Below are positions 4,285 through 20,905 of a DNA stretch of 20,905 bases, piece by piece. The stretch spans positions 1-20,905 of IMG/VR virus record IMGVR_UViG_3300046460_000413. The stretch is one strand, 5' to 3'. The translations under genes and the position numbers were made by a program. Each line of letters opens with the position of its first letter. Within the stretch, counting starts at the first letter, position 1. The stretch is from a virus. The notes under the pieces are model-generated. The model was not told the DNA's origin, made no database searches, and saw only the letters and a program-made list of their open reading frames with translations.

Positions 4285-4289
4285 CGACA

Positions 4290-4865: not shown

Positions 4866-4866
4866 C

Positions 4867-5229
4867 ATGACCATTCGTCCACCTCGCATCTGCTCATGCG
4901 GCAAAGTCGTCGCCAGCAACGTCATCTGTCTGTGCCAGCAGCGCCGCAAGGCTGAAGCTGACAAGCGCCGTCCGACCGCATCAGAGCGCGGCTATGACTC
5001 GCGATGGTCAAAGGCTCGCACCGGCTATCTGTTGTCGCACCCCAACTGCGTGATGATCACTAACAGTGAGGCATGCGGCAAGCCTGCATCCGTGGTCGAT
5101 CATATTAAGCCCCATCGCGGCGATACGAAGCTGTTCTGGGACAAGGCTAATTGGCAGTCCCTATGCACCCATTGCCACAATAGCCGCAAGCAATCCCTCG
5201 AACACCGCACCCACAATCAGGACCGATAA
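4867..5229 (+). CDS. HNH endonuclease, phage type
   Basis: A 120-residue HNH nuclease. The core reads VVDHIKPHRGDTKLFWDKAN, followed by WQSLCTHCHNSRK: catalytic/metal residues D78, H79, N95 and H104, with a structural zinc site formed by C70, C100 and C103 and probably C61. The upstream RGYDSRWSKARTGYLLSHP block is typical of phage HNH proteins. An extra Cys cluster (C9, C11, C21, C23) at the N-terminus may bind a second zinc. HNH proteins of this kind often support terminase during packaging (HK97 gp74 type) or are free-standing homing nucleases; the terminase genes lie 1.4 kb downstream. I chose ATG 4867 over the in-frame TTG at 4849, which would extend the gene into the chaperone. The stop overlaps the next start (TAATG). 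Confidence 0.9.
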   Translation: MTIRPPRICSCGKVVASNVICLCQQRRKAEADKRRPTASERGYDSRWSKARTGYLLSHPNCVMITNSEACGKPASVVDHIKPHRGDTKLFWDKANWQSLCTHCHNSRKQSLEHRTHNQDR

Positions 5230-5606: not shown

Positions 5607-5615
5607 AAAGCCCTC

Positions 5616-5625
5616 TGACCGGTCA
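5616..5625. promoter_or_regulatory. 10-base perfect palindrome in a short intergenic gap
   Basis: TGACCGGTCA is a perfect palindrome in the 60-base gap before the connector gene, the largest gap within the later part of the head operon. It could be a small operator. It is short and GC-rich enough to occur by chance, and I see no convincing promoter hexamers beside it. Confidence 0.25.
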
Positions 5626-5666
5626 CTCTCCACCGCGCAAGACAGAACCTAATTGGAGTTTTTTCA

Positions 5667-5948
5667 GTGGTCACCCTTGATAGCCTGAAGGCGCATCTGA
5701 ACGTCACGACGGACGTTGACGATGCGCTGATCGGCGAGAAACTGGCAGCGGCGGCGGAGTGGGTTTCCAAATTCACCGCCATTCCAGCGGATGCGACCGA
5801 TATTCCTGCGCCGGTGGATGAAGCCGTGCGCCAGCTCGCCGCCCATCTCTATGAGAACCGCGAGGCCTCCCTTGTCGGCGTTACGGCTCAGTCGCTGCCC
5901 TTCGGCATGCTGGATTTGCTCGATCCTTACCGCGCTTGGGTGTTCTAA
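5667..5948 (+). CDS. Head-tail connector protein, HK97 gp6-like
   Basis: A 93-residue, largely helical protein of the gp6-like connector family, which forms a ring under the portal and extends the DNA channel. Typical features are the VTLDSLKAHLNVTTDVDDAL start, the AAAEWVSKFTAI helix, PVDEAVRQLAAHLYENREA, and the ending with FGMLDLLDPYRAWVF, where the closing L.PYR motif is strongly diagnostic. The start is GTG at 5667 with GGAG eight bases upstream. The stop abuts the DUF3168 gene, as in many phages, which supports the neck-module reading. Confidence 0.92.
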   Translation: MVTLDSLKAHLNVTTDVDDALIGEKLAAAAEWVSKFTAIPADATDIPAPVDEAVRQLAAHLYENREASLVGVTAQSLPFGMLDLLDPYRAWVF

Positions 5949-6362
5949 GTGGCTTCTGACCCGTCTTTGGAGCTTCAAAAGGCCATCCGCACGCGCCTAT
6001 TGGCGAGCGATGACGTGATGGATCTGGTTCCGGCTGACAACGTTCTCGACGTTACAGGCCGTCCCGAACGCATGCCCTGCATCAACATCGGTGAAGGACA
6101 GACCGTATTCCGGCGCTTTGATGCCACCGCATACGGGGACATTCATATATGGGCAGGAGAGAACGGCCTCGTTACCGCGAAGCTGATCGCCGACGCCATC
6201 GTGGATGCAATCAGTGTCGATGCCCAGATCGATGGCGTCCTGCACCTCGACGGCTTTGTTTGCCACGACCTCTCAGTTGATCGCGCCCGATATCTGCGCG
6301 ACCCGCACGGCCCGTTCAGCCATGCGGTGCTGTCTGTCGCCGCCATCATGCAGGCCCGCTGA
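5949..6362 (+). CDS. DUF3168 family protein, probable tail terminator / neck protein
   Basis: A 137-residue protein with the DUF3168 layout: an N-terminal helix (LELQKAIRTRLLASDDVMDLV), RPERMPCINIGEGQTVF, a strand-rich centre ending DIHIWAGENG, then a long helix (TAKLIADAIVDAI) and a C-terminal strand carrying the RDPHGPFSHAVLSVAAIM element. This family folds like lambda gpU and usually caps the tail tube at the head-tail joint. The gene starts with GTG immediately after the connector stop, without an obvious strong ribosome site, so translational coupling is likely. Its presence implies a tail is or was made, although no tube gene is seen in the window. Confidence 0.88.
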   Translation: MASDPSLELQKAIRTRLLASDDVMDLVPADNVLDVTGRPERMPCINIGEGQTVFRRFDATAYGDIHIWAGENGLVTAKLIADAIVDAISVDAQIDGVLHLDGFVCHDLSVDRARYLRDPHGPFSHAVLSVAAIMQAR

Positions 6363-6679
6363 TGCGCGCCGGGAACCTAGACCGCCTTGTCTCGATCGAA
6401 CGGTGCACGGTTGCCGTGGATGCCTACGGCACCGCGATCGATACCTGGGCCTTGTTCGCCACCATGCGCGCTCAGGTTTTGCAATACAGCACCGACGACC
6501 GGGAGACCGCGCACGGCAACTCAACCGATCGCTCAATTACGTTCCGCATGCGCTGGCTTGATGGCCTGACGCTGGAACATCGCGTTTCTTACGAAGGCCA
6601 GCCCTTCAAGATCAAGCAAATCAAAGAGATCGGACGCCGCGTTGGCCTAGACCTGATCTGCGAACGGGTAGGGCCATGA
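6362..6679 (+). CDS. Head-tail adaptor / joining protein
   Basis: A 105-residue small beta-barrel protein of the phage head-tail joining family (HK97 gp9, SPP1 gp16 type). The order is diagnostic: MRAGNLDRLVSIER at the start, a DAYGTAIDTW turn, ATMRAQV, a middle segment TDRSITFRMRWLDGL, and the end YEGQPFKIKQIKEIGRRVGL. It forms the stopper ring between connector and tail. The start overlaps the previous stop (TGATG) and its stop overlaps the terminase small-subunit start by four bases (ATGA). Confidence 0.92.
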   Translation: MRAGNLDRLVSIERCTVAVDAYGTAIDTWALFATMRAQVLQYSTDDRETAHGNSTDRSITFRMRWLDGLTLEHRVSYEGQPFKIKQIKEIGRRVGLDLICERVGP

Positions 6680-7053
6680 AAGGCCGGAAACCCCTGCTTG
6701 TGACCGACGCCGATGCCATTGACGGGATCATTCCCCCGACCGGCTGGCTGTCGAAACACGCCAAGGCCGAATGGCGGCGCGTCATGCCGGAAATGGCTAA
6801 GCGCCGCATCTTGACCGCCGCCGATCTCGGCAGCCTTGAAGGTTACTGTGTCGCCACCGGCAAGGTGCGCGAACTTGAGTTGCTGATGCGCGCCGGTTTC
6901 GACGCGAAGCTTTTTCGCATGCAGGACCAAGCCATCAAAACCGCGCGCCAGCTCGCCGCAGAGCTGGGCCTTACCCCTGTCTCAAGGGCTAGGCCGTCTG
7001 TCCGCGACACCTCAAACGACGATGATGATGACAATCCATTCAACATATCCTGA
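6676..7053 (+). CDS. terS: Terminase small subunit, P27 family
   Basis: This 125-residue protein should recognise the packaging site and regulate the large subunit. It has the P27-family pattern: a short basic N-terminus (MKGRKP), an IPPTGWLSKHAKAEWRRVMPEM helix pair, LTAADLGSLEGYCVATGKVRELE, and the AELGLTPVSRAR motif near the end, followed by an acidic Asp-rich tail. The tail overlaps the large-subunit start by 32 bases. It is normally the first gene of the packaging block, at the start of the late operon; here it follows the adaptor gene. Confidence 0.9.
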   Translation: MKGRKPLLVTDADAIDGIIPPTGWLSKHAKAEWRRVMPEMAKRRILTAADLGSLEGYCVATGKVRELELLMRAGFDAKLFRMQDQAIKTARQLAAELGLTPVSRARPSVRDTSNDDDDDNPFNIS

Positions 7054-8647
7054 GTGGCTGTTTGACGCATCCGAGATCGATGACCCGTTCGGGTATGGCG
7101 AGCGCGCCGTGCGCTGGCTTCGCGCCATGAAGCATCCCAAGAGCAAACTGCCGAAAAAGGCGTTTCAGCTAGATCCATGGCAAGAACGTATCGTCCGACG
7201 CATCTATGGTCCGCGCCATGACGACGGCTCTCGCATCGTCAACACCGTCGTCATTCTGGTTCCCCGTGGCAATCGGAAGACTTCGCTGTCGGCTGCACTG
7301 GCATTATTGCACACCATTGGCCCGGAAAAGGTGCCCGGTGGCGAGTCTGTGTTCGCGGCGTCTGATCGTAAGCAGGCCGGTATTGCGTTCAAAGAGGCGC
7401 GCGGAATCATTCAGGCGAACAAGAAACACCTTGTCCCCGTCACCAAGATTTACGATGCGCACAACTCCGCTAAGAAGATCGCATATCCACGTGAAGCGAC
7501 TGAGCTTGAGGTCGTGTCGTCCGATGCGCCCGGTCAGGAAGGTCGGACGCCCGCGTTCGTCCTGGCTGATGAAATCCATGTATGGCGCGGAACTGATCTC
7601 TGGAAAGTTCTGACCAACGGTCTCGATAAAACCGACAACAGCCTCCTAGTCGTCGCCACGACGGCAGGCCGTGGTCAGGACAACATCGCTCATGAAGTGA
7701 TTGAGCGCGCCCGTAAGGTCGCGCGCGGCGATATCATCGACGCTACCGTTCTCCCCGTGCTTTTCGAAGCCGACGCGGAATGTGATTGGGCAAGCGAGGA
7801 AGTTTGGGGCCGGGTCAATCCGGGCAGCGGTTACGGCTACCCGTCAATCGCGGGGTTTCGTCGCCATGTCGCGCGCGCGAAGGACAGCCCGACCGAACGA
7901 GACAGCCTGAAGCAATATAAGCTGAATATTTGGCTAGATCATTCGACATCGCCGTTCGTCGATATGGGGATCTATGACAAGGGCGCGGCTCCAATCGACT
8001 ATGACACGTTCGCCGGTCAATCCTGCTGGATCGGCGTCGATATGTCCAAGACAACCGATCTTTCGGCAGTCGTCGCGTGCTTCCGAGACGGCAACACCTA
8101 TACCGTGCTGCCGCACTTTTTTTGCCCGGAAAACGATATCCGCAAGCGCGGCGACGTTGACGGCGTGGATTATGTCCGCTGGTCAAAGGACGGACACCTA
8201 ACTCCAACCCCCGGCGACGTTATCGATAATGAGGCGGTCGCCAAATACATCCTTGGCCTTTGTGAAAGTTTCGACGTGCGCGAAATCGGCTTCGATATCG
8301 CTTACGCGCAGGCAGTCATCGCCCTCCTAAGCGACGTAAGCGAGCGGATCGTCACTATCCGGCAGGGCTGGGTGACCCAATCGCCAGCCCTCAACACACT
8401 TGAGGCTGCGATCATCAGCGGCAACTTCCGCCACGGCGGCCATCCGGTGTTGCGCTGGAATTTCTCGAACATCGCCGTTCAGACGGACAGCAACAGCAAC
8501 CGGACCATGCACAAAGGCAAGTCCACCGATCGCATCGATGGCGCATCCGCTTCATGGATGGCTGTCAGTCGCGCCGCCGCTGGCGAGACATACACCTCTT
8601 TCTATGACCATCCCGACATCACTGCGGAAATGTTGGTGCTGCCATGA
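7022..8647 (+). CDS. terL: Terminase large subunit (ATPase and nuclease)
   Basis: A full-length 541-residue packaging motor of the Terminase_1 class. The ATPase half has a Walker A-like PRGNRKTS (81-88), Walker B FVLADEI with D183 and E184, and the ATTAG coupling motif (212-216). The RNase H-like nuclease half has WIGVDMSKTTDLSAV (D340), GFDIAYAQ (D425) and DRIDGASASWMAV (D503/D506), which together supply the metal-binding acids. All key residues are present, so the enzyme looks active. Three ATG codons in a row (7022, 7025, 7028) make the exact start uncertain and no strong ribosome site is visible, which fits coupling to the overlapping small-subunit gene. The stop overlaps the next start (ATGA). 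Confidence 0.96.
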   Translation: MMMTIHSTYPEWLFDASEIDDPFGYGERAVRWLRAMKHPKSKLPKKAFQLDPWQERIVRRIYGPRHDDGSRIVNTVVILVPRGNRKTSLSAALALLHTIGPEKVPGGESVFAASDRKQAGIAFKEARGIIQANKKHLVPVTKIYDAHNSAKKIAYPREATELEVVSSDAPGQEGRTPAFVLADEIHVWRGTDLWKVLTNGLDKTDNSLLVVATTAGRGQDNIAHEVIERARKVARGDIIDATVLPVLFEADAECDWASEEVWGRVNPGSGYGYPSIAGFRRHVARAKDSPTERDSLKQYKLNIWLDHSTSPFVDMGIYDKGAAPIDYDTFAGQSCWIGVDMSKTTDLSAVVACFRDGNTYTVLPHFFCPENDIRKRGDVDGVDYVRWSKDGHLTPTPGDVIDNEAVAKYILGLCESFDVREIGFDIAYAQAVIALLSDVSERIVTIRQGWVTQSPALNTLEAAIISGNFRHGGHPVLRWNFSNIAVQTDSNSNRTMHKGKSTDRIDGASASWMAVSRAAAGETYTSFYDHPDITAEMLVLP

Positions 8648-9045
8648 CCGCCGACGAAATGCAGGAATATCTCGAAAGCCTGCCCGACAAAGTGCAAGGC
8701 GAGCTTGCCGACATTCTGCAAGAGCAGGCGGAACGGCTGTCCGCTGCCCAGCGTGCGGAATTGCAGGCGCAACAGACATCACCGGACGAAACCGGCGACC
8801 TTGAGGCGTCTTGTCGTGTTGAGACGCGAAACGATCCGCTGGACGTTCATGTCGTCGCAGGCGGCGATCTCACGACCACGGAAGTCCGCACCGGCAGCGG
8901 CGAACCATACGATTACGCGCTTGGATTTGAGTTTGGCAATAGCCGACAATCTTCGCGGCCTTTCTTTTGGAACACCTATCGGGCGATCAAGCCCTCAATC
9001 GACGAAGCAATTGCAGAAGCCACACAGAAAGCAATCGATGACTGA
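8644..9045 (+). CDS. HK97 gp10-like neck / tail completion protein
   Basis: A 133-residue protein with the gp10-like layout: an N-terminal amphipathic helical region (MTADEMQEYLESL through the Gln/Glu-rich helix), a DETGDLEASCRVE strand, a beta hairpin, and the signature DYALGFEFGNSRQSSRPFFW, continuing with NTYRAIKPSIDEAI, where the E.G...Q..RPF element is diagnostic. Family members (HK97 gp10, lambda gpZ analogues) help complete or join the tail. It overlaps the terminase stop by four bases and the next gene by eight. In most relatives it lies next to the adaptor gene rather than after the terminase. Confidence 0.85.
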   Translation: MTADEMQEYLESLPDKVQGELADILQEQAERLSAAQRAELQAQQTSPDETGDLEASCRVETRNDPLDVHVVAGGDLTTTEVRTGSGEPYDYALGFEFGNSRQSSRPFFWNTYRAIKPSIDEAIAEATQKAIDD

Positions 9046-9385
9046 TATTACCAAAGCGCCCAAACCCATGAAGTGGTCCGGTGGCGAGCATGCTATGACG
9101 CTAAATCACCCTTGGGTGCGCAATGTGCTGAGCATTCGCGGCTTGCCCGGCGATTACGGCACAACGCCGTCAGCGTGCTTCAAGCGGTTCGAGGAGGGCG
9201 TTTTCAGCACCGATGACGTTGAGCGCATCATTTATCTTGGCCTGATCGGCGGCGGATTGTCTCTCAGCGAGGCCGATGCGCTCGTTCTGCGCTTCGTTCG
9301 TTCGCGCCCGATTATGGAAAACCACACGGTCGCTGTTTCTGTTCTAGCCACGCTGTTCAGTGATGTAGAGACGGAGGCCGCATAA
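9038..9385 (+). CDS. Tail assembly chaperone-like protein, GTA gp10 type (copy 3)
   Basis: A 115-residue paralogue of the product of 1844-2167. The shared part is the C-terminal helical domain: DVERIIYLGLIGGGLSLSEA (LIGGGLS at 69-75), then ALVLRFVRSRPIME and a last hydrophobic helix. It directly precedes the tape measure (TAATG, one-base overlap), the expected position for this chaperone, so this copy most probably does the tape-measure job. I chose the ATG at 9038, which overlaps the gp10-like stop; the longer in-frame opening would run deep into the upstream gene. No slippery heptamer or frameshift product is needed, unlike the lambda G/GT arrangement. Confidence 0.8.
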   Translation: MTDITKAPKPMKWSGGEHAMTLNHPWVRNVLSIRGLPGDYGTTPSACFKRFEEGVFSTDDVERIIYLGLIGGGLSLSEADALVLRFVRSRPIMENHTVAVSVLATLFSDVETEAA

Positions 9386-11616
9386 TGGCAAAGCGTCCGT
9401 CTCTCGATATCGCTCTCGGATCGCCTGACATTGAAGCCTTCAAGGGCAAGATGAATGAGGCCAGCAACCACGTCGGCACCGTCGCGCGCCAGATGGCTCG
9501 CCGTTTCCTCGATATGAACGATGAACTTAAGGCCGGATTGCTTGCGTCCGCGTCCAGTATGGCGCTCGGCATGGTCGGTCGGATCGCGCTTGTGGTCGGC
9601 GGCTTCAAGCTTATGTCCGACGCCATCGGTGCGACGCGCGACCAGCTCAAGGAAATGGTCGCCATCGCCGATAAGGCGGAGAACCTTGGCGTGTCGCCTC
9701 AGTTCCTGCAGTCGTTCACCGGCGAGGCTCGCAAACTCAAGATCGAAGCCGGCGAGCTGGAATCAGCACTTTCAAGCGCATTCAACGCTACGAAAGACCG
9801 ATCTCCGATCAATATCGGTGAATGGGAGACCGGCAAAGAGAAGATCAGCGACGTTGAAAAGACGTTGCGCGTTCTCAATGCGACCGTCGCCGGTGGCCGT
9901 CTTGAGGGGCTGGTCCTATTTCGCGACGCCGATACCCAAGAGAAAAAGGTCGTCGCCGTCCTAAAGGCGATGCAGCAACTTGAACAAATTGGGCAGCGCG
10001 CCGCCGCGCTTGATCTTGGCGAGAAAATGTTCGGCTCTCAGTTCGTCGATCGCATTCGGCAGGGTAAGACCAGCGCCGACAGCATGCTGGTCACCATGCA
10101 AAAGCTGAGCGTCGAGTCCGGCGACATCTTCCCGAATGACCTAATGGTTCGGGCCAAGCAGATCGACGATCAGCTCAAGCTTGCTGAAAACCGGCTGACC
10201 ACCGCATTGAAGCCCGCGTTCAACGATCTCGCCGATGGCATGCTGACCATCAAGGGCTATTGGGCTGACGTCGTGAACCTGATCGGGCAGGCGGTTGATT
10301 GGACCAACAAGCTTGGTCTGACCAGCGAGACCATGCGTAAAAAGAGCGAGCTTGCCGCCGTCAATGAGGCCATCAAAAACGGCACCGGCATTTGGGGTGT
10401 CCCGCAGGTGCCCGAGGGATTTCTAGGTGCAACGCCGCGCGCTGATTTGGCCAAGCGACGGGACCGACTGCAAGGCGACATTGACGCCGCAGAACGTCAG
10501 CCGAATGTGTATCCAGAGCAGCCGACACCGTCACGCGGCACGGGCGATGCACCGACGCGCAAGCCGACAGACACCGGCGTCGATAAGCTGGACAGCGCCA
10601 CCGAGAACATCGCCAAGCGGACGGCGGCATTGCAGGCGGAAGCCGCTGCAATCGACCTCGGGACAGAGGCACGTGAAAAGGCCAAGATCACCGCCCAGCT
10701 CGAAACCGTCGCCAAGCAGGCAAACGCCGCCGCTGGCAAGGGAGAGAACCTTGTCACGGCTGAGCAGCGGAAGCTTATCGACGACGTGGCTGCCGGTTAC
10801 GCCAATGCCGCCCAAGCCATGGAAAAGGCGAGGGTGGCCAGCAGCATCAAATTCGGGCGAGCAACGTCCATGCTCGATCCGTCCGACGCGGCGATTGCCC
10901 AGCAGCTTCGCGATATTTACCCCGACGTGGCGACCGCCTTGGGCAGTGTTGAAGCGCAGGCTATGCGCACCAACGAGGCCATGAAGGGCATCGCTGGGAC
11001 TATGTCGTCCAGCCTCACTTCTGGGCTGACTGACATTCTCGACGGCACAAAGTCGGTCAGCGCCGGTTTTGCCGGCATGGGCAAAGTGGTCATCCGGGCC
11101 ATTGAGGAAATGATCGTCAAGATGCTGATCGTCCAGCCCTTGATGCGGGGTTTACAGGGCAGCTTTGGTTTCGCCGATGGCGGCGCCGTCGCACTTCCCG
11201 GCTCGGCTGACTTTATCGGACCAGTCGCGAAAGCCACCGGTGGCATGATCAATGGCCCAGGCACCGGCACCTCAGATTCCATTCCGGCGCGACTGTCAGA
11301 TGGCGAGTTCGTCGTGAACGCCCGTGCGACCTCAAAGAACCGTGCCCTGCTGGAGGCGATCAATGGCGGACACCTTCGGGGCTTTGCCACCGGTGGACTC
11401 GTCAGTGACGTTCCTACGCCGTCTGGCGCGGCTATGGTCGGGGGCCAGACGGTCAATAATCACGTGTCAGTCAACGTGAACGGCTCCGCTGGGACGCCAG
11501 CTCAGAACGCGGACCTCGCTGCGCAGATCGGGAAGCAGGTTGAGGCGTCGGTTCGCCAGCTCGCGATGAAAGAGCTGAGGTTACAAATGCGACCGGGCGG
11601 CGTGATGAGGAGCTGA
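9385..11616 (+). CDS. Tail tape measure protein
   Basis: A 743-residue tape measure protein, which sets tail length and leaves the tube during DNA ejection. The N-terminus is helical. A hydrophobic segment lies at ~52-76. Long helical, Ala/Lys/Glu-rich regions follow, for example around residues 415-470. The end carries the hallmark Gly-rich part: FADGGAVALPGS, GGMINGPGTGTSDSIPARLS, DGEFVVNARAT and FATGGLVS (from ~595 on), then VNNHVSVNVNG. At roughly 1.5 angstrom per residue this would match a tail near 110 nm, an inference from the usual rule. No gpL/K/J-type genes follow; the structural operon ends here. Confidence 0.93.
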   Translation: MAKRPSLDIALGSPDIEAFKGKMNEASNHVGTVARQMARRFLDMNDELKAGLLASASSMALGMVGRIALVVGGFKLMSDAIGATRDQLKEMVAIADKAENLGVSPQFLQSFTGEARKLKIEAGELESALSSAFNATKDRSPINIGEWETGKEKISDVEKTLRVLNATVAGGRLEGLVLFRDADTQEKKVVAVLKAMQQLEQIGQRAAALDLGEKMFGSQFVDRIRQGKTSADSMLVTMQKLSVESGDIFPNDLMVRAKQIDDQLKLAENRLTTALKPAFNDLADGMLTIKGYWADVVNLIGQAVDWTNKLGLTSETMRKKSELAAVNEAIKNGTGIWGVPQVPEGFLGATPRADLAKRRDRLQGDIDAAERQPNVYPEQPTPSRGTGDAPTRKPTDTGVDKLDSATENIAKRTAALQAEAAAIDLGTEAREKAKITAQLETVAKQANAAAGKGENLVTAEQRKLIDDVAAGYANAAQAMEKARVASSIKFGRATSMLDPSDAAIAQQLRDIYPDVATALGSVEAQAMRTNEAMKGIAGTMSSSLTSGLTDILDGTKSVSAGFAGMGKVVIRAIEEMIVKMLIVQPLMRGLQGSFGFADGGAVALPGSADFIGPVAKATGGMINGPGTGTSDSIPARLSDGEFVVNARATSKNRALLEAINGGHLRGFATGGLVSDVPTPSGAAMVGGQTVNNHVSVNVNGSAGTPAQNADLAAQIGKQVEASVRQLAMKELRLQMRPGGVMRS

Positions 11617-11639
11617 CTGCAGCTCCACGCTTCAGACGC

Positions 11640-11645
11640 TATAAT
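11640..11645 (+). promoter_or_regulatory. Possible promoter -10 element upstream of the HUH gene
   Basis: A perfect TATAAT lies about 100 bases before the GTG of the HUH gene, just after the structural operon. The hexamer 17 bases upstream (CTGCAG, 11617-11622) is a poor -35 match, so the site would need an activator. Being in the only gap between the late operon and the next block supports a promoter, but the evidence is one hexamer. Confidence 0.35.
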
Positions 11646-11695
11646 GCAAAGCCTACGCTCTTAACCAGTCGGTCAGGTGCGACTAGAAACGAAAA

Positions 11696-11724
11696 ACGGC
11701 CCCTTGCAGCAAACAAGGGACCGT
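11696..11724. terminator. Hairpin in the HUH-gene leader, terminator-like on the minus strand
   Basis: ACGGCCCCTTG (11696-11706) pairs with CAAGGGACCGT (11714-11724) around a 7-base loop. On the plus strand one C-A mismatch interrupts the stem. On the minus strand the same position is a G-U wobble, so the 11-bp stem is unbroken and is followed by TTTTTCGTTTC. This is what a rho-independent terminator for leftward transcription looks like. In plus-strand mRNA the hairpin lies just upstream of the ribosome site (11730-11735) and may affect translation. Confidence 0.55.
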
Positions 11725-11741
11725 GACTCAAGGAGAACCGC

Positions 11742-12731
11742 GTGTCCGCGCGATTACACCCTCTACATAGCACAAAACCGTCCGAGCTGCATCTGGACGA
11801 ACAGAAACAGCGGTGGGACGCGGTCGTCGCATGGCGTGAAGCCGGTTGTCCGGCGAAGACTATGGAGCCGGATGACGGCGACCTCGATCTGAGCTTCGCT
11901 GAGCCGGTCGAAAATCTGGACCTGTTGGACGATCTCCCTGACGTTTCTGGACCACTTGATGGGTCCAAAAAAGTTACGGCACCCGCGCTCGAAACACCGT
12001 CCAAGAAAGTCAGGAAGCGCTTTCGCCGCTCCGACCGTAACGACAAGGAAGCGCTTGAAAAGATTCAGGCATTCGTTGTTACGCCGGATATGCCCAATAA
12101 CCCCGCTTTAGTAGCAATTCTCAACCCCTCTGATCCCCCCTCCAAATCACCCTCTATCGTCCGTGATCCGTCTCTACCTAAGCCCTCTAACGACAACCTG
12201 ATCCCTGTATGGGAGAAGTCGTCTGATTGGGTGAAGCTGTGCTTTGCCGTGGAAGCTCTAGAAGCGTCAGGAAGGCCAGCGGTCTCGTTTACGCTCGATC
12301 TTGCACCTGCAAACGAGAAAGCCGCCCTGAGTCATCCCAAGGGCTTTACGGAGTCATTGAAACGGGAGCTGGACGTAGAGCTTCAGCGAGAGCTTGGTTA
12401 CAAGCCGCTCTACCTGTTCGGGGCGGACGTTGCCTCGAAAGATCGGCTGCATCTTCATGGTGGCATCGCGGCTCATCCCCATGAGCTTCCAGCGATCAAA
12501 CGGGCGTTGCTCAGCGTCGGCGGGGAGTGGGGTTCAAAACGTCACCCGGACAAGCAGCTCGATATCAACACCCAGCGCTGTGACTGGGGCTGGGCTGAAT
12601 ACTTGCTCAAAAAACAGGGGGCTGTTCGAAAGGTTCTGAAAGGGCGAACCTATACCATCACCGGACCGCTCCGAGCTGAGGCGAGGGAACTTTACGGGAA
12701 TTGCCGGGACGCAATGCGCATCTTGGGATAG
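11742..12731 (+). CDS. Putative HUH endonuclease (Rep/relaxase-like)
   Basis: The 329-residue product has, in the right order, the three motifs of single-tyrosine HUH replication endonucleases: a hydrophobic strand with Thr and Asp (AVSFTLDLAP, T184), the metal-binding HLH within DRLHLHGGIAAHP (H237, H239), and a helix with Y-x-x-K (AEYLLKK, Y287 and K290). Such enzymes nick one DNA strand through a 5'-phosphotyrosine link to start rolling-circle replication or transfer. The first ~160 residues are acidic, Pro-rich and probably disordered, with a basic patch at 88-96 (KKVRKRFRR). The start is GTG with a strong AAGGAG six bases upstream. Similar LHLHG proteins occur in alphaproteobacterial phages and plasmids, but I cannot name a characterised one. 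Activity is inferred from motifs. Confidence 0.7.
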   Translation: MSARLHPLHSTKPSELHLDEQKQRWDAVVAWREAGCPAKTMEPDDGDLDLSFAEPVENLDLLDDLPDVSGPLDGSKKVTAPALETPSKKVRKRFRRSDRNDKEALEKIQAFVVTPDMPNNPALVAILNPSDPPSKSPSIVRDPSLPKPSNDNLIPVWEKSSDWVKLCFAVEALEASGRPAVSFTLDLAPANEKAALSHPKGFTESLKRELDVELQRELGYKPLYLFGADVASKDRLHLHGGIAAHPHELPAIKRALLSVGGEWGSKRHPDKQLDINTQRCDWGWAEYLLKKQGAVRKVLKGRTYTITGPLRAEARELYGNCRDAMRILG

Positions 12732-12759
12732 CGTGTTCCGGAACGATGGGAGCTGTGTG

Positions 12760-13215
12760 ATGGTGTCTTGTTTGCGAAGCATCTTCGGAGGCCAGCGGAG
12801 AGCGAGAGAGTTTGCCGTCGTTTGTGTGGCCCTCAGTGGAGCGATAATTCTGACTACTCCTGCTTCCGCTTGCATGGTGTTTATGGAGCCAGAGCAACGT
12901 ATAGCTCTGGCATACCGGAAGCCATACATCGAGTCCGTTGCTCTCGTTCGTGTGACTCAAGCAACTTACTCACGCCCCCAATACAAAAGCACGCATCCTT
13001 GGGAGGCATCAGCCTCGGTCGTTCGCAGCTTGCACGGTTCGATCGAAGGTGAGGTTAAGTTCAGGGGTGGCGGAGGAACGTCAGCGTGCCAAATGCCTTA
13101 TGAACTGCCGAAGGCCGGCGATGAATGGATTGTTTACTCGTTGCCCGACCGAACGACTTTCGAGGCTTACCCAGCCAGCGTTGCCTACGAGGCTGACCCG
13201 AATATTCGCCGGTAG
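12760..13215 (+). CDS. Secreted protein of unknown function, weakly TIMP/netrin-like
   Basis: A 151-residue protein with a clear Sec signal peptide: a basic n-region containing GGQRRAREF, a hydrophobic core at ~18-33 and a cleavage site after ASA (35-37), leaving Cys38 as the first mature residue. The -3 position is Ala, not the Leu/Val/Ile expected of a lipobox, so signal peptidase I is more likely than lipidation. The mature part (strands around ESVALVRVTQATYS and GEVKFRGGGGTSAC, with a second Cys at 110 followed by AGDEWIVYS) vaguely recalls netrin/TIMP-like OB-fold proteins, with a Cys at the mature N-terminus and G-x-WIVY after the second Cys. I chose ATG 12760 because GGGAG stands seven bases upstream; an in-frame GTG at 12733 lacks this. 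A prophage cargo gene acting in the envelope is plausible. Confidence 0.7.
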   Translation: MVSCLRSIFGGQRRAREFAVVCVALSGAIILTTPASACMVFMEPEQRIALAYRKPYIESVALVRVTQATYSRPQYKSTHPWEASASVVRSLHGSIEGEVKFRGGGGTSACQMPYELPKAGDEWIVYSLPDRTTFEAYPASVAYEADPNIRR

Positions 13216-13436
13216 CGGCCTGATGTCTGCAGGCGCCTATCTTCGATGAAAATAAATGTTCGGCCCAGAAGTAAGCGATCGTTTGAATCCCTGTCGTTGA
13301 TCCGACTCACAAATTTCGGACGAAGCTCGAAATCGTTACAGTCAGCGTTGACTTACTAGAGGTTGAACGACTCTTGCGGCGCACTTTTGATCGTGCGAGT
13401 CAGATTCCATTGCATCACCGACTAGGCAGGGGACCA

Positions 13437-13643
13437 ATGGACACGCCAACTTACTATTCGAACGACCAATACACCGCACTTATTGCAACCTTGAAGCGGA
13501 TCGCGCCGGTAGCGCCCTCGCTCAAGATCCAGCTTAGCGCTTGGACCGGCACCGTCACTGACGACGAAGTAAAGACCGCGCTGGGCGAGACCTGCAACAT
13601 CTGGCCGGAATCGATCCGCGCCGACATGGAGCAGGCGGCATGA
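13437..13643 (+). CDS. Small protein of unknown function
   Basis: A 68-residue acidic protein, not recognised. It begins at ATG 13437 behind AGGGGA, which I prefer over an upstream in-frame TTG at 13374 because the upstream part (Arg-rich and without a ribosome site) does not look coding. The end overlaps the lipoprotein start by four bases (ATGA), so the two are translated together. No membrane segment, metal site or HTH is visible. Confidence 0.6.
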   Translation: MDTPTYYSNDQYTALIATLKRIAPVAPSLKIQLSAWTGTVTDDEVKTALGETCNIWPESIRADMEQAA

Positions 13644-13870
13644 GGCGGCTTGTTTTCGCGTTCGCGGTCTCTCTGTCTGGCTGCGGCGGCGGGTATCACC
13701 GGCTCACGCCGCCGCTGGTCGATATGAACGGCGTCGATCAGGCCAAATACAATGCGGACGTATCCGAGTGCCAGCGCAAGAAAGACAGCGCTTCCTTCAT
13801 CGGTGCGGCGACCATGGTCAGCGATTGCATGGAAGCCAAGGGCTACCGGATCATTCAGAAGATGGGCTGA
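13640..13870 (+). CDS. Small lipoprotein
   Basis: A 76-residue lipoprotein precursor: a short basic start (MRRLVFAFAV) and a canonical lipobox LSGC with lipidated Cys15. The mature part contains PPLVDMNGVDQAKYNADVSE and ends with a DCMEAKGYRI element, with a Cys pair (C44, C63). This pattern matches small outer-membrane glycine-zipper lipoproteins, but the glycine-rich zipper between the two halves is reduced to SFIGAAT, so this is a short version. It is coupled to the preceding small gene. Roles such as surface exclusion or an Rz1-like spanin partner are conceivable; a spanin is unlikely because no overlapping Rz-like gene is present. Confidence 0.75.
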   Translation: MRRLVFAFAVSLSGCGGGYHRLTPPLVDMNGVDQAKYNADVSECQRKKDSASFIGAATMVSDCMEAKGYRIIQKMG

Positions 13871-13871
13871 A

Positions 13872-14027
13872 ATGAGGACTACACATTTCGTGATCGAGGC
13901 GCGGCGTAACGCCAGCTTCTTGGCGCTATATCCCGACTCCGATCAACATTACAGGCTGTGTTCAAACTGCAACGGTCGCCGGCTTTCTGGAATTTCTCCT
14001 AAGCACGGCACCTGTTTGTGTGATTGA
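13872..14027 (+). CDS. Tiny Cys-rich protein, possible zinc ribbon
   Basis: A 51-residue reading frame starting one base after the lipoprotein stop. It ends in LCSNCNGRRLSG and then GTCLCD, a CxxC plus CxC arrangement that could bind one zinc ion. The N-terminal half is basic and aromatic. There is no strong ribosome site, so expression would depend on coupling to the lipoprotein gene. It is short enough that coding status is uncertain; the Cys pattern is the main support. Confidence 0.45.
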   Translation: MRTTHFVIEARRNASFLALYPDSDQHYRLCSNCNGRRLSGISPKHGTCLCD

Positions 14028-14872: not shown

Positions 14873-14900
14873 GAGAGGGCGTGGAAACCCGCGCCCTCTC
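14873..14900 (+). terminator. Rho-independent terminator
   Basis: GAGAGGGCGTGG pairs with CCGCGCCCTCTC (one T-G wobble) around an AAAC tetraloop: a 12-bp GC-rich stem, followed by AGCGGTTTTG. It lies 25 bases after the stop of the 67-residue gene and 19 bases before the next promoter. It therefore separates the accessory block from the cassette at 15030-17139. The T-run is short but the stem is very stable. Confidence 0.85.
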
Positions 14901-14918: not shown

Positions 14919-14947
14919 TTGACGATGTTCATGTTTTGTTCTACTCT
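14919..14947 (+). promoter_or_regulatory. Sigma70-type promoter of the three-gene cassette
   Basis: TTGACG (14919-14924) and TACTCT (14942-14947) are separated by exactly 17 bases. The -35 box is preceded by C as in many alphaproteobacterial promoters, and the spacer is T-rich. It stands between the terminator and the cassette's first gene (ATG 15030), predicting a start near 14954 and a leader of about 75 bases. No clear operator is seen, so expression may be constitutive. Confidence 0.75.
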
Positions 14948-15029
14948 TGCTCTAGTTGTGTAAGGATGTTGAATCCCGTTGCTGGTTTGCGCTGATTGTC
15001 GGATGTTGCGCGCGGCTGGGAGATTTTTG

Positions 15030-16094
15030 ATGAGCATTGAAGATATTGCAAAGACCATGGCGTCGCGAATGCCGTGGGATACTGCCAAGCGCGTATTCGA
15101 CTCAGGTGAAATCGAGAAGTCGCATGGCTGGGATAATACGGTTCGCAAACTTGCCGACGAAAACGCAGACGATGAGGAAGCGGCCGCGTATCTAAGCGGA
15201 GCTTTGTCGCACCATATTCTCTGCGGCGAAAAGCTTTCGCGGTTCTACAAATTGAGTAAGGTTGACATGGACGCGCTTAGAGTTGCCGCGCTCGATCTCC
15301 AGCCGAAGAATACTGAATTTCGAAAAGCATATCCGTCGAACATCAGCGATGAACTTATCGAGGAGACTTTTCCTCAGAAGCACACGCTGGCTGCGGTTGA
15401 AAAGAATGATGATGGAGTCGGTCTTGTTTTTGCGTCCACACGGGCAGTTGAGATGCGGCAGCCGATCGAGCTTGATATACTCCCGGAAGACGCTGCGGAA
15501 CTTTTGGAAGGCTTCAGTGAGGTGGTCGGTATCAAACTGATCAAATTCCAAGCGATGGACGTCGTTTGGATACCGCACAAAGGCAGTTTTGTAGATGTAA
15601 GGGTGGACTTTCCTAGAGGCATGCATCTTGATACCGGTAGCGCGGCACATGAAGCTACAACGACTACGCTCGCTAAGCTGATCCAGACTGATTATCTCGC
15701 TAGTCCGGCCAATCTTTTTCCGCTGATTAAAAAAATTTACGAGGCTCCCAAGGAAGGGAGCATCGTTGAGTTAGCGTTCGGAACGACGACCGCGTCTCTC
15801 AAGCATGAAAAAATGAGGCGTGGCGGTAAAGATCTGCGGAATGAGAAATATCATCAGGGTGGCAAGTCTGCCCTGAATACACCTATAGAGCCCTACAGAT
15901 TGAGCGTGCGTTGGGATTTTGACCTCGAAGCTGATGTGGTCTCACATCCCGAACTAAGTCTGAATGGAAACTCTAGAATGAATAGCTCAGCTACTCGAAC
16001 CATTCAGGATATCAATATTCGAGGATGTGTAGGTGTTGCCGACTACGAGTTCGTTCGGGAACGGATTGAACATTACATGACGCAAAAAGTTTAG
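15030..16094 (+). CDS. Cassette gene A: large protein of unknown function
   Basis: A 354-residue protein that I do not recognise. The start is ATG 15030 (MSIEDIAKTMASRMPW) with GGGAG seven bases upstream; an in-frame opening at 14979 lacks a ribosome site and would lie very close to the predicted transcript start. The N-terminal ~110 residues are helical and acidic. The middle is strand-rich (GVGLVFASTRAVEM, ELDILPEDAAELL, DVRVDFPRG). A lysine/arginine-rich loop (KHEKMRRGGKDLRNEKYHQG) precedes a further strand (YRLSVRWDFDLEAD) and a closing RTIQDINIRGCVGVADYEF segment. There is no Walker, nuclease, methylase or membrane motif. It is followed after seven bases by gene B and then the nuclease gene C. 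A sensor or substrate-recognition subunit would fit, as inference only. Confidence 0.8.
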   Translation: MSIEDIAKTMASRMPWDTAKRVFDSGEIEKSHGWDNTVRKLADENADDEEAAAYLSGALSHHILCGEKLSRFYKLSKVDMDALRVAALDLQPKNTEFRKAYPSNISDELIEETFPQKHTLAAVEKNDDGVGLVFASTRAVEMRQPIELDILPEDAAELLEGFSEVVGIKLIKFQAMDVVWIPHKGSFVDVRVDFPRGMHLDTGSAAHEATTTTLAKLIQTDYLASPANLFPLIKKIYEAPKEGSIVELAFGTTTASLKHEKMRRGGKDLRNEKYHQGGKSALNTPIEPYRLSVRWDFDLEADVVSHPELSLNGNSRMNSSATRTIQDINIRGCVGVADYEFVRERIEHYMTQKV

Positions 16095-16101
16095 CGGGCA
16101 T

Positions 16102-16515
16102 ATGCCGAAGATCGATGATCTTAAGAATGAGGTGGTGAAAGGTTGGGCCGAAAGCCCAGCCTTGAACACCTGCATTCGCATCATCGATTACATAAATGCG
16201 CTGCCAAAAGATGAGCTGCAAATGCTCACGTTTACTTCTCTACAGCATGCAGCCGGCGAGGAAAGCGTTACGGACGATTTGCTGCGCGCAGTGTCGTTGC
16301 TTGCAAACACTTCAATTCATGCTCTCGATTCTAAATTGTTATTTATCGATGATGATGAAAGGGAGTTCGATGTCTCTAAAGCCGAGTTATCCGTTGCACG
16401 TTTAAAGGGAGTTTTTATTCACCCAGACAGTGGTCAGCCCGTTCCGAATTTTGAGAAAAAAATAGTCCCATACTTTGTCCCGTCCGACCGATTCTTCGAA
16501 TTCAAGGATCATTAG
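16102..16515 (+). CDS. Cassette gene B: small protein of unknown function
   Basis: A 137-residue acidic protein that I do not recognise, in the middle of the cassette, seven bases after gene A and three bases before gene C. The first part is helical (TCIRIIDYINALPKDELQML). A helical bundle-like segment follows (TDDLLRAVSLLANTSIHAL). Then come two strands around an acidic turn (KLLFIDDDEREFDVS), ending with IVPYFVPSDRFFEFKD. No catalytic motif is visible. The size and tight spacing suggest an adaptor, inhibitor or partner of the nuclease. The stretch is strikingly AT-rich (16321-16380: 21/60 G+C), pointing to acquisition from another source. Confidence 0.75.
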   Translation: MPKIDDLKNEVVKGWAESPALNTCIRIIDYINALPKDELQMLTFTSLQHAAGEESVTDDLLRAVSLLANTSIHALDSKLLFIDDDEREFDVSKAELSVARLKGVFIHPDSGQPVPNFEKKIVPYFVPSDRFFEFKDH

Positions 16516-16518
16516 CGG

Positions 16519-17139
16519 ATGGATTTTACGCTGGAACAATTGTTGGCACGCGCGGCCGGTAACCCGGCTGCGGAAATCGTTATCGAGATGCTATTGATTC
16601 CCGATTACCCAAAATGGGTCGGGCTGATCAACAAGGCGATTGATAAGTCCTTTCGAGCAATGGCGGAAAATCCCGAACTGAGGAAGGATCGGAAGGAGGA
16701 TGAGCTCACGATTGAGCTGGTTACTCTTTTGAAGCAACTTGAAATCGACGCTCGCCATGAAGAAAAAGTTGGAGGACACTGCGATGTGACTATTCGTGGT
16801 CCGAACGGCTATGCTTGGCTTGGCGAAGCGAAGCGACATAATCGTGGACTAGATTGGTTATTCCAGGGCTTTCAGCAGCTCAATACTCGCTACTCAACTG
16901 GTCTCCCTGAGCACAGTAAAGGCGGTATGATCATCTACACTTACTCCGCAGACTTAGCGGGACAAATGACTGAGTGGGGTGATTATCTTGCGAAAAATCA
17001 GGATGGACTCGCTCTTTCAGCGTGCCCGGTAAATCAACTATCGTTTCTATCGACACATAAACATGAACGATCGGGATTGCCTTATGAGATCCGGCACATT
17101 CCGTTGAGTCTATATTGGAATCCCAAAGATAAGAAATGA
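16519..17139 (+). CDS. Cassette gene C: PD-(D/E)XK-type nuclease
   Basis: A 206-residue protein with the restriction-endonuclease-like core. It has an acidic helix (EDELTIELVTLLK, E62/E66), then GGHCDVTI with D89, a beta hairpin, and YAWLGEAKRH with E103-A-K105, giving the D-x13-E-x-K catalytic signature. A helix with a conserved-looking Gln and Arg follows (FQGFQQLNTRYSTG, Q120, R124). The strand GGMIIYTYS follows, as in many defence-related PD-(D/E)XK proteins. There is no attached recognition domain, so target choice probably comes from partners A and B or from DNA structure. It starts three bases after gene B and is the last gene of the cassette. DNA cleavage is inferred from motifs; an RNA or nucleotide target is not excluded. 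Confidence 0.82.
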   Translation: MDFTLEQLLARAAGNPAAEIVIEMLLIPDYPKWVGLINKAIDKSFRAMAENPELRKDRKEDELTIELVTLLKQLEIDARHEEKVGGHCDVTIRGPNGYAWLGEAKRHNRGLDWLFQGFQQLNTRYSTGLPEHSKGGMIIYTYSADLAGQMTEWGDYLAKNQDGLALSACPVNQLSFLSTHKHERSGLPYEIRHIPLSLYWNPKDKK

Positions 17140-17185: not shown

Positions 17186-18976
17186 TCAAAGTTTCAGAAT
17201 CGCAAAGTTGACAGCTTCAATCATCTTTACGCGCTCGCTCAAAATGCCCTCCGGCATGATGCCATATCGCCCGGTCGTCGTCGCCTTGGTATGCCCGAGC
17301 AGCATGTTGAACTGTTCATCCAGATAGCCAGCGGTTCGCAGTGCATCCGCAAAGCCATGGCGGAAGCTGTGGAAGTTGACAGTCTTGTCTACCTTCACGC
17401 CGATGTCGCGGAAATACTGATTAAAGAACGACGACGGCACTCCAGATATGAAACCACGACCGTCTGGCTCTAATTCCGGGAACAGGTTCGCCTCGTTGAT
17501 CGCCTGCATCCGCGCGATGTAGTCGAGAAGGCCGAGCTTGATCAGTTCGGGATGCACCGGGACAACCCGTTCAGATCCCGCATTCTTGACCGACTTCCGC
17601 GTTGAGCCCTCGCGAGTGATATGGAAAATCCACTGACCGTGTAGCTGGCGAACGTCCTTCGTCAGAAGCTGAGCGATCTCGCCAAGGCGGGCACCGGTGT
17701 AAAGGCCAATCCACGGGATCCAGTAACGCCAGTCGCGGATGGCGACGTTGCCAGCTTCATGCTCAAGCTTGTCGCCGCCGCACGTGTGAAACAGCGGCGA
17801 CGCAAAAATCTTTTGCAGGTTTTCCTCGCTGTGAGGGAAGCGGGTCTGCTTTCGACGATCTAGCTTGAGAAACAGGCCAGCCATAACGTCGGTGGTAACG
17901 TAATCATTGGACAGCAGCCATTTGCAGAACGCACCCAGCGCCGAAATGTATCGGTTGACGGTGACGTCGGTGATGGTCTGCCGCCGCACGATCTCGTTTT
18001 TCTCAACGACCTTTAAGAACGTCAGTCCTTTGAAGTGTCCGGTATCGGCAGCGCGGGTAGGCCACAAGAAAAGCTTGGCCTTCCAGTCGCGAACGTTCGC
18101 ACGTGTCAGCAGCGAGATATGCGCGTTGCCACCGAGGAATTGATCGAACAGAACGACGATCTTGCGGTTCTGATCCCAGGTATCGGTCGAGATCCCCGCT
18201 GGTGCTTCACGATGGAAGCGATCGAACAATTCAAGGATCTTCTCGCCGGGCTTGTGCGCCATGGTCGTAGGCTGCTGCACAAGCGGGTCAGTCGGTTTGC
18301 CTGAGAAGTCGGCAGCGTCCCGTTCTTCCGCCCGCTTAAGGTATTCCAGCTCCGCACGCTGGATGCCGTTGGCGAGCCGCTTATACTCCAAACTGTGCAT
18401 GTCGAGGTCCAGACGGCGTTCGTCGATGACCTTGCGGACGACATCGGCAACTGCGCGCGTCTCTCCCTTGGCAACATCGGCCTTTAACGTGACGAAGCGG
18501 GCGGCACGCTCGCGTTGATCGACGTCGAACTGGTCGCGAAGCATTTCCAGTATTCGGAAGGCGTCGAGTTCATAGACGCCGCCAAACTCGCCTTCCATAT
18601 GGTTCCAGATCGCGTCGAGGTCGGCAGCGGTAGGGCAGGCCTGTCGGAACTTTTCGTCGGTCGTGATCAGTTCGACGTATCGCTTCCAGACGGCATCCCG
18701 CAGTTCATCTTCCGAGAACTGTCGCGGTCGCCGGTGTTCATCGATCTCCCGTTCCCATGCGTCCAGAACAGGTCGCGCCCGGCGCTTAGCTTCGCGCGGG
18801 TCTGTCGTTTCGAGAGACTTCCAAAACTCTCGCTTGAGCTTCCCGACGCGACCGGAGAGCCGGGCCTGTAGATCTTTCGGGATCGCCATGCGCGCATAGT
18901 AGTTCACGCTGCCGGGACGACGGACGACGTTGGTCGCTGCACTCATGTTTCGGGCGATCGTTTTTGCTGTGTTCAT
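17186..18976 (-). CDS. int: Tyrosine recombinase (integrase 1)
   Basis: A 596-residue site-specific recombinase. Its N-terminal ~240 residues are a helical DNA-binding part starting RRPGSVNYYARMAIPKDL, typical of the long alphaproteobacterial phage integrases. A SAM-like core-binding domain lies at ~245-365. The catalytic domain has R430 (YTGARLGEIAQL), H536 and R539 (HSFRHGF), H562 (LLGHTKATT) and the nucleophile Y571 (GRYG). All active-site residues are present, so it should be functional. The start at ATG 18976 has no visible Shine-Dalgarno sequence; Met11 (18946) is an alternative. It runs leftward, convergent with the cassette, and only 46 bases separate the two stops with no terminator on this strand. 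It probably integrates this element. Confidence 0.95.
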   Translation of the reverse strand: MNTAKTIARNMSAATNVVRRPGSVNYYARMAIPKDLQARLSGRVGKLKREFWKSLETTDPREAKRRARPVLDAWEREIDEHRRPRQFSEDELRDAVWKRYVELITTDEKFRQACPTAADLDAIWNHMEGEFGGVYELDAFRILEMLRDQFDVDQRERAARFVTLKADVAKGETRAVADVVRKVIDERRLDLDMHSLEYKRLANGIQRAELEYLKRAEERDAADFSGKPTDPLVQQPTTMAHKPGEKILELFDRFHREAPAGISTDTWDQNRKIVVLFDQFLGGNAHISLLTRANVRDWKAKLFLWPTRAADTGHFKGLTFLKVVEKNEIVRRQTITDVTVNRYISALGAFCKWLLSNDYVTTDVMAGLFLKLDRRKQTRFPHSEENLQKIFASPLFHTCGGDKLEHEAGNVAIRDWRYWIPWIGLYTGARLGEIAQLLTKDVRQLHGQWIFHITREGSTRKSVKNAGSERVVPVHPELIKLGLLDYIARMQAINEANLFPELEPDGRGFISGVPSSFFNQYFRDIGVKVDKTVNFHSFRHGFADALRTAGYLDEQFNMLLGHTKATTTGRYGIMPEGILSERVKMIEAVNFAILKL

Positions 18977-19162: not shown

Positions 19163-20905
19163 TTGTTCGGTTCGACATCATACGAATGTCGAGATGTCGT
19201 CCCCTTGCTCCCACAACGCTCCCACATTACTAAGAAGCGCGGCGTGTATTTCTACCGTCGGCGCATCCCCAAGACCGCAAACGGTGAGGTCGTCCTATCG
19301 CTGCGAACGCGCGTATTCCGCGTTGCCGAGAGCATTGCCGAAGGGCTGGACCGACATTTCGAGAGGCTTGTTCAAGGCGTGACCACTGACGGCGAAGCGG
19401 ACCTTCATTCGATCCTCCGTACCTACCTGAAGCAGCGACTGGACTTGGACATGTGGCGGCGAGAGGAGACACCTCACGCTCCCATCTTCGGTTCGCCAGA
19501 GCCGGGCAAGTCCCACGCAAGCATTGACCTTGAGTGGATCGACCACGAGTTGGCGATAGCCCGCAGCGATCTGGCCGGAAGAGCCTACGGTCAACAGCGC
19601 CCTTTGATCGATGAGGTGATGGAGGCTCACGGCGTCCCAGAGGAACACCGCAACGCGCTTGCTCACGGCATCCTCCGCGCCAATGTCGAACTGTGGGAAA
19701 CCGTACGGAAGCGTACGCTAGGCGAGTATCCACCGTTCAATGACGTGGTTCTCCGACCAACGGTGATGAGCCCGCCAGAGGCGAAGGCTTCCGCCGGACC
19801 CAAGATGACGGAAGTGCTCCCTGCGTTTCTTGACTATGCCCAGAAGGACAAGGGATGGCGCGGCCAAACTCTCGCGCAGAACAAGACCACGTATAGGATG
19901 TTTCAGGAGTGTTGTGGGGACCGCCCTCCCGCTGCATACGACAAGACCGATCTGACCAAGTTCTATGATCTGCTACGGGCACTACCAAAGCTGTACTCAA
20001 AGAACCGGGAGTGGGCAGGACTGACGCTTGAACAGATCGTCGAACAGACCAAGGGACGTGAGGTTGAACGGCTCTCGATAACCACACGGAAGCGGCACTT
20101 CTCCGCGCTTGGCGTGTTCTTTCAGCACCTGAAGCGCCGTAAGGAGTATCTCGGAGAGAACCCTGCCTACGGTTTCGAGTTCCCAAAAAAGGGTCGCGCA
20201 CGAAATAAGCGCCTGATGTGGGAAGGAGAGCTTCTCACCCGGCTATTCGCGTCTCCAGTTTGGACCGGGTGCTATTCTGAGAAGCGCCGGTCGCGGTCGG
20301 GCTCGTTGATCCTACGCGATGAGCGTTACTGGCTTCCACTTCTTGGCGTCTACCACGGCAACAGGTTGGAAGAGTTCGCGCAGCTTCTCCGCAGTGATGT
20401 GAGGTGCCAAGACGGTATTTGGTACATGGACATTAACGACGAAGGCGCAAAGCAACTGAAGAACGAGCAATCCACGCGCCGTGTGCCCCTCCACCCAATT
20501 CTCCTAGAGCTTGGGTTCATGGACTACTTGACGACCACAGCGCCCAACCCAGACGACCGAGTGTTCCCGCAGCTTCGTCCGGGCGGACCTGACAAGAAGA
20601 TCGGTTACTACTTCACGAAATGGTGGACGCAGTATCGCAGGGATGTCGGCGTCTATCAGGAGAAGTTAGACTACCACTCGTTTCGAGGCGGCGTGACGAC
20701 CAAGCTATCCGCCGCCAACATTTCACTGGACGTAAGGAACGAACTGCTCGGTCACGAGGGCAAGAGCGTCGATCAGCAAGTCTATCTGAAGGGCTTACCA
20801 CTTCAGATGCTGGCTGATGCCATCGCTCTCGTCGAGTGGCCGGAGGTCCAGTTGATCAACGCGGAAGCGCAAGGACCGCTTCCCGACACTCAAAACGCGA
20901 AATAA
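19163..20905 (+). CDS. Tyrosine recombinase (integrase 2)
   Basis: A second long recombinase, 580 residues from the TTG at 19163, divergent from integrase 1. The order is the same: an N-terminal part with RGVYFYRRRIPK, a core-binding domain (~215-330) and a catalytic domain with R401 (YHGNRLEEFAQL), H505 and R508 (YHSFRGG), H531 (LLGHEGK) and Y541 (QVYLKG). The usual HxxRH is HxxRG here and the first box reads HGNR instead of TGAR, but the main catalytic residues remain. No good ribosome site precedes 19163. A TTG at 19205 would give MLPQRSHITKKRGVYF, closer to the usual family start. Clear relatedness to integrase 1 in the catalytic part (RDERYWLPLLG versus RDWRYWIPWIG) but strong divergence elsewhere rules out recent duplication. 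It ends at the last base of the window. Confidence 0.92.
   Translation: MFGSTSYECRDVVPLLPQRSHITKKRGVYFYRRRIPKTANGEVVLSLRTRVFRVAESIAEGLDRHFERLVQGVTTDGEADLHSILRTYLKQRLDLDMWRREETPHAPIFGSPEPGKSHASIDLEWIDHELAIARSDLAGRAYGQQRPLIDEVMEAHGVPEEHRNALAHGILRANVELWETVRKRTLGEYPPFNDVVLRPTVMSPPEAKASAGPKMTEVLPAFLDYAQKDKGWRGQTLAQNKTTYRMFQECCGDRPPAAYDKTDLTKFYDLLRALPKLYSKNREWAGLTLEQIVEQTKGREVERLSITTRKRHFSALGVFFQHLKRRKEYLGENPAYGFEFPKKGRARNKRLMWEGELLTRLFASPVWTGCYSEKRRSRSGSLILRDERYWLPLLGVYHGNRLEEFAQLLRSDVRCQDGIWYMDINDEGAKQLKNEQSTRRVPLHPILLELGFMDYLTTTAPNPDDRVFPQLRPGGPDKKIGYYFTKWWTQYRRDVGVYQEKLDYHSFRGGVTTKLSAANISLDVRNELLGHEGKSVDQQVYLKGLPLQMLADAIALVEWPEVQLINAEAQGPLPDTQNAK
19172..19192. repeat. Inverted repeat TCGACAT-N7-ATGTCGA at the 5' end of integrase 2
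   Basis: A perfect 7-bp inverted repeat (19172-19178 and 19186-19192) around the 7-base centre CATACGA, followed at once by a further partial ATGTCG. Two arms around a 7-base crossover is the shape of a tyrosine-recombinase core site, but it would also suit an operator. If translation starts at 19205 rather than 19163, the repeat lies just upstream of the gene instead of inside it. Confidence 0.5.

Follow-up and report, generated by a model that had tools for sequence, protein, structure and literature searches.

The window, by which we mean the whole stretch of 20,905 nucleotides that was analysed, is an IMG/VR virus record that holds structural genes of a tailed phage (with tape-measure and terminase matches), a stretch of small ORFs, a cassette of three genes, called here A, B and C, and two tyrosine integrases (Table 1). 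The cassette is intact: its ORFs follow one another on the plus strand with intergenic gaps of 7 and 3 bases. The ATG codon of gene A is preceded by a Shine-Dalgarno-like GGGAGA, and an alternative start is the TTG codon at 14979. According to the preliminary description of this DNA, a strong terminator and a good promoter stand in front of the cassette, and both were overstated. The hairpin itself is real and strong (-29.5 kcal/mol for the stretch, z -4.67, with 0 shuffles equally good), but its T-tract is weak, with just TTTT some bases downstream, and the terminator scan made no call there. The promoter-like motif TTGACG-N17-TACTCT is indeed present, but its -10 element agrees with 3 of the 6 consensus bases, and scanning for consensus promoters revealed no site here and no excess over shuffled sequences.

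Table 1. Coordinates of the cassette and of the features discussed together with it (positions in the window unless a locus is named).
Feature	Coordinates	Strand	Description
Small lipoprotein-like ORF	13640-13870		weak match to the Cor superinfection-exclusion family (phrog_1119, E=0.07)
Hairpin	14873-14900	+	12-bp stem, 4-nt loop, between the trio and the upstream genes; possible terminator, weak T-tract
Candidate promoter	14919-14947	+	TTGACG-N17-TACTCT; weak -10
Gene A	15030-16094	+	354 aa from ATG; phrog_12777 (4e-53); predicted RdgC-like fold, proposed DNA-binding sensor
Gene B	16102-16515	+	137 aa; phrog_11490 (5e-20); small conserved protein, proposed adaptor
Gene C	16519-17139	+	206 aa; phrog_9664 (2.5e-51); predicted PD-(D/E)XK nuclease, proposed DNase effector
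Tyrosine integrase	17186-18976	-	DUF6538 and Phage_integrase; convergent with the trio, 46 bases from its end; context, outside the system
Second tyrosine integrase	19163-20905	+	DUF6538-type; runs past the end of the window
Type ISP and MmeI enzymes with C-terminal B and overlapping gene C	L018:2689-8609; L197:690-6613; L007:2687-6591

The claim that the unit is richer in A+T than its surroundings was confirmed: its G+C content is 48.2% versus 58.4% in positions 1-14000, and GC3 is also lower (0.48-0.51 in the trio versus 0.67-0.73 in four structural genes). This composition fits a recent acquisition of the trio. The two divergent integrases of the DUF6538 type are arranged back to back, possibly as a result of tandem integration or because a border between two elements lies there.

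Each of the three proteins matches, over nearly its full length, a PHROG of unknown function (Table 1), and the identifiers of these PHROGs were not found in the literature that we searched. A, B and C have no match in Pfam, NCBIfam or PADLOC (2023) at E<1, so the comparison with known defence systems that had been proposed at the outset returned none in PADLOC. Sequence and profile searches of the PDB revealed no credible relative of A, B or C, and no remote homologue of gene B was found. With the single C protein of the window as query no relatives were detected in the genome or viral collections, and an alignment was required; the alignment of A offers no conserved stretches that could be used for a scan.

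The AlphaFold2 model of C (pLDDT 96.1, pTM 0.90) shows the alpha-beta-beta-beta-alpha-beta order (helix 60-73, strands 77-79, 90-93 and 99-106, helix 111-125, strand 134-141). The motif D89, E103-A-K105 noticed earlier is present in the sequence, and in the model the third strand carries E103-x-K105, with D89 at the strand before it and Q120 in the helix after it, all in the elements where the fold requires them. E60, D89, E103, K105 and Q120 are invariant in all 56 of 56 diverse relatives, and every catalytic residue is present in the copy from the window. The structural neighbours found by Foldseek include NucS/EndoMS (probability 0.90), EcoO109I, BglII and McrC, all with E > 0.03 and hence below significance, and weak matches to PDDEXK_9 and HamA were obtained among members of the C family. 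Thus, the PD-(D/E)XK fold postulated for C is borne out by the core fold of the model and by the invariance of the active site, and we predict that C is a nuclease of this fold with the corresponding activity.

RdgC is a DNA-encircling, recombination-associated housekeeping protein, which, to our knowledge, has not been known as a partner of a nuclease. When the model of A (pLDDT 95.7, pTM 0.92) was compared by Foldseek with 350,542 PDB chains, the crystal structures of RdgC occupied ranks 1 and 2, with 2owy aligned over almost the whole chain (E=1.7e-4, probability 1.00) and 2owl as the second match (E=3.7e-3); among the viral models of BFVD, RdgC proteins of phages rank second and third. The global TM-scores between A and RdgC are low (0.33-0.37), which could be attributed to hinge movements of a multidomain protein. 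The conserved residues of the A family are D177, D193, R270 and G278. At the level of sequence, A does not match the Pfam family RdgC (PF04381), and the comparison of its profile by hhalign indicates no relation to RdgC (probability 0.3%) or to lambda RexA (probability 0.1%), while the crystal structure of RexA is absent from the 50 best PDB matches of A. As these profile comparisons were negative, we keep the claim at the level of the fold: A is predicted to be RdgC-like in its fold, rather than a member of the RdgC family. Two genomes that carry the trio possess, besides the main copy of RdgC, a second, divergent one (L207, G005:C105:3252-4136, and L208, G003:C110:46504-47376).

The alignment of C was built from phage and plasmid records and used to scan IMG/VR and 84,980 species genomes. 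Carried out with C alone, this search yielded 95 loci (36 from species genomes and 59 from IMG/VR), with carriers among the cyanobacteria and the Alpha-, Beta- and Gammaproteobacteria. At 88 of these loci C is immediately preceded by A and B, in the same order and on the same strand; the other seven comprise five fusions or replacements and two loci interrupted by contig ends. The three ORFs therefore form a cassette in the sense originally proposed and are kept together elsewhere. The median gaps between A and B and between B and C across the loci are 0 and -4, i.e. the genes typically abut or overlap. Loci that diverge in one of the three genes tend to diverge in the other two as well, with pairwise distances correlated at r 0.75-0.80 (46 loci; 0 of 2000 permutations), which indicates that the genes travel together. 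The set of loci includes near-duplicates, and at an identity cut of 80% it is reduced to 53 sequences of A, 60 of B and 57 of C. Further samples showed that C is sparse (it occurs in 7 of 397 genomes of the order of the Rhizobium locus and, within the cyanobacterial phylum, in 1 of 386), and the trios found there again exhibit the A-B-C order.

The trio behaves as independent cargo, as had been suggested, since it is found on prophages, plasmids and chromosomes. A match to the trio was detected in 28 of 5426 complete genomes of E. coli, and at the three E. coli loci that we inspected it is flanked by the genes for the replication endonuclease and the portal protein (gpA-gpQ) of P2-like prophages; in the Klebsiella phage KP12 it occupies the same position. 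One of the copies from E. coli P2 prophages, L106, spans positions 6028-8222 of its locus. The cargo of the gpA-gpQ hotspot of P2 has been shown to include anti-phage systems (Rousset et al., PMC9122126). Five of the 80 P2 loci sampled here carry the trio, and the others carry different cargo. A few proteins from this hotspot, namely those of 370, 106 and 165 aa in L160:8112-10035 and that of 389 aa in L170:9646-10815, have no PADLOC match at E<0.001 and are candidates for further defence cargo. The plasmids with the trio include a mobilizable one of 6.1 kb, and one of the plasmid-borne copies lies near a gene of the AbiEi family. A convergent integrase is found less than 200 bp from the trio in six sampled viral loci, as well as in the window.

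The exceptions to the A-B-C order are informative with respect to the roles of the individual genes. Three Rhizobiales have B as the C-terminal domain of a restriction enzyme, which is of the MmeI type in Rhizobium phaseoli and of type ISP in the other two; gene C follows in each case with an overlap of 4 bases (Table 1). The domains of the type ISP-B enzyme are an Mrr-like nuclease, a ResIII helicase and Type_ISP_C, and the second type ISP enzyme was identified by its length, by a match to ResIII and by its resemblance in sequence to the first. At yet another locus (L198:4830-12168), a divergent gene C is inserted between the genes for a ResIII helicase and a Mod-like methyltransferase, in what resembles a type III restriction-modification (RM) operon. 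Finally, the NACHT-HEAT proteins encoded at four cyanobacterial loci (L011, L013, L026 and L036) carry C as their C-terminal domain and are NLR-like proteins with a C-terminal effector. These fusions occur without B, indicating that B is not always required. Taken together, B and C have the appearance of an adaptor-nuclease module that can be transferred between systems. What chiefly suggests the roles of sensor for A, coupler for B and effector for C is that each time A is replaced by a DNA-scanning or immune-sensor protein.

With a probability of about 0.6, we propose that the trio is a mobile defence system, which temperate phages and plasmids use against other invading DNA. A, as an RdgC/RexA-like dimer, would encircle or clamp DNA and recognize a feature of the invader, e.g. 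intermediates of replication or recombination. B would couple A to C, the formation of the complex would switch on the PD-(D/E)XK DNase, and C would then cut the DNA of the invader or, in a scenario of abortive infection, all DNA of the cell. The computed support for this reading comprises the conservation of the trio, the fold and active site of C, the predicted fold of A, the placement in the hotspot, and the exchange of A for restriction enzymes or NACHT-HEAT proteins. The observation that the nuclease has no recognition domain was incomplete with respect to the system, in which A is likely to be the DNA-binding part by virtue of its RdgC/RexA-like fold, and B is likely to be the coupler. 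A and B did not turn out to be ordinary phage replication or morphogenesis genes, the trio is conserved, and the predicted structure of C has the PD-(D/E)XK fold. Hence the suggestion of an anti-phage or plasmid-exclusion system gains from the fold, the conservation, the cargo-like behaviour and the P2 defence hotspot, although these data do not distinguish between phages and plasmids as the targets.

The RexAB systems offer a close parallel for a sensor of this kind. RexA of phage lambda, a DNA-binding protein involved in phage exclusion, shares its fold with RdgC, with a Dali score that is modest (PMC11077077), and RexAB of P. putida consists of a DNA-binding sensor and a toxic effector and blocks phage (PMC12894663). 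Both RexAB systems are, like the trio, borne by prophages, and both combine a DNA-binding sensor of the RdgC fold with a separate effector, as is predicted for the trio. In the Moraxella phage Mcat13 and in L098, an S24 repressor gene precedes the trio at a distance of no more than about 110 bp, as cI precedes rexAB in lambda. We rejected such a cI-rex-like position as a general rule, because a repressor gene is found at this distance in just two lineages. However, the effector of RexAB is the membrane protein RexB, whereas the trio has no membrane effector but a PD-(D/E)XK nuclease and a third gene, B; besides, A displays no detectable sequence similarity to lambda RexA. RdgC itself, which heads the structural matches of A in the PDB and holds ranks 2 and 3 in BFVD, also shares no sequence-profile similarity with it.

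Among the systems from the P2 hotspot, Rst_3HP (Hp1-Hp2-Hp3; Rousset et al. 2022) resembles the trio in having three genes without Pfam domains. Its PADLOC profiles, however, have 333, 359 and 227 positions as compared to 354, 137 and 206 aa in the trio, and we rejected the identity of the two, as the PADLOC profiles of Hp1-3 match L173, a different P2 locus, and none of the trio copies L106, L107, L109 and L120. The repeated adoption of C by different partners is reminiscent of the gated nuclease-protease pairs (HamMAB, AVAST, canu; PMC12799240), in which a nuclease module has likewise been adopted by unrelated immune systems; there, however, an MBL-type nuclease is activated by a protease, whereas in the trio a PD-(D/E)XK nuclease is accompanied by the small partner B.

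The association with restriction enzymes calls for consideration of the trio as a plasmid-exclusion or general anti-DNA system of a restriction-like type, whose main targets would be plasmids or transforming DNA, recognized by A in the manner in which unmodified DNA is recognized. The RM enzymes with which B and C are associated (type ISP, MmeI and type III-like) attack unmodified DNA of any kind, and the carriage by plasmids, including the 6.1-kb mobilizable one, agrees with such targets. Yet, unlike the type ISP and MmeI enzymes, which in Rhizobiales carry a C-terminal B domain followed by C, the standard trio contains no methyltransferase, helicase or target-recognition domain. The search for a cognate methyltransferase gave no Pfam match in A, B or C; the trio stands alone at most loci, and a methyltransferase accompanies B and C just in the fusion and RM loci of Rhizobiales. 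As the standard trio lacks a modification gene, and as the P2 hotspot and the carriage by phages point to competition between phages, we consider a restriction-like system quite unlikely. One could also envisage a toxin-antitoxin or addiction module that stabilizes prophages and plasmids, with C as the DNase toxin, B as the antitoxin and A as a DNA-binding regulator, considering that the operon is compact, with overlapping genes, that it is found on small plasmids and prophages, and that the small B immediately precedes C. This appears distinctly improbable given that C occurs without B in the NACHT-HEAT fusions, that the fusion partners of B are restriction enzymes rather than DNA-binding repressors, and that A, a conserved protein of 354 aa, would be atypical as a regulator.

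The trio occurs sporadically on elements that are unrelated to one another, among them plasmids and chromosomes, and it occupies variable accessory slots instead of replication modules; these facts and the fusions to immune-type proteins argue against a set of recombination or replication genes, in which an RdgC-like protein and a nuclease would serve the DNA metabolism of the carrier itself. PD-(D/E)XK nucleases do serve in recombination, and RdgC proteins occur in some phages, as seen among the BFVD models; nonetheless, we regard this explanation as very improbable. A different question is whether the trio, interpreted as a defence system, has already been validated under another name. The DefensePredictor study tested operons taken from 69 strains of E. 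coli, and PD-(D/E)XK domains are present in 13 of the systems that it validated (PMC13092281); the trio could be among these, since E. coli is a species where it occurs. We find this unlikely, though worth bearing in mind, as few E. coli genomes carry the trio (28/5426), and none of the main texts searched reports an RdgC/RexA-like protein combined with a nuclease in defence. The parts of the trio are of known kinds, and their combination appears to be undescribed within the same scope. The label "undescribed" given to it earlier accordingly holds with respect to PADLOC 2023, Pfam, NCBIfam and the main texts searched.

Returning to the proposed sensor-coupler-nuclease scheme, the trio is a conserved candidate for a three-gene defence system, which ranges from cyanobacteria to E. 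coli and was missed completely by the annotation libraries tested. It is possible, and we put this forward tentatively, that it represents a new class of immunity, in which an RdgC/RexA-like DNA clamp senses the invader and licenses a PD-(D/E)XK nuclease via an adaptor, and from which the adaptor-nuclease pair has been captured independently by restriction enzymes and NLR-like proteins. If A senses in the way of RexA, the trio would be a soluble, nuclease-linked version of the long-unexplained logic of Rex exclusion, and it would become testable what a clamp of the RdgC fold recognizes on invading DNA. That B and C are found fused to type ISP, MmeI and NACHT proteins suggests that a single effector module serves several kinds of sensors, and such fusions provide a direct experimental handle on the exchange of parts between immune systems.
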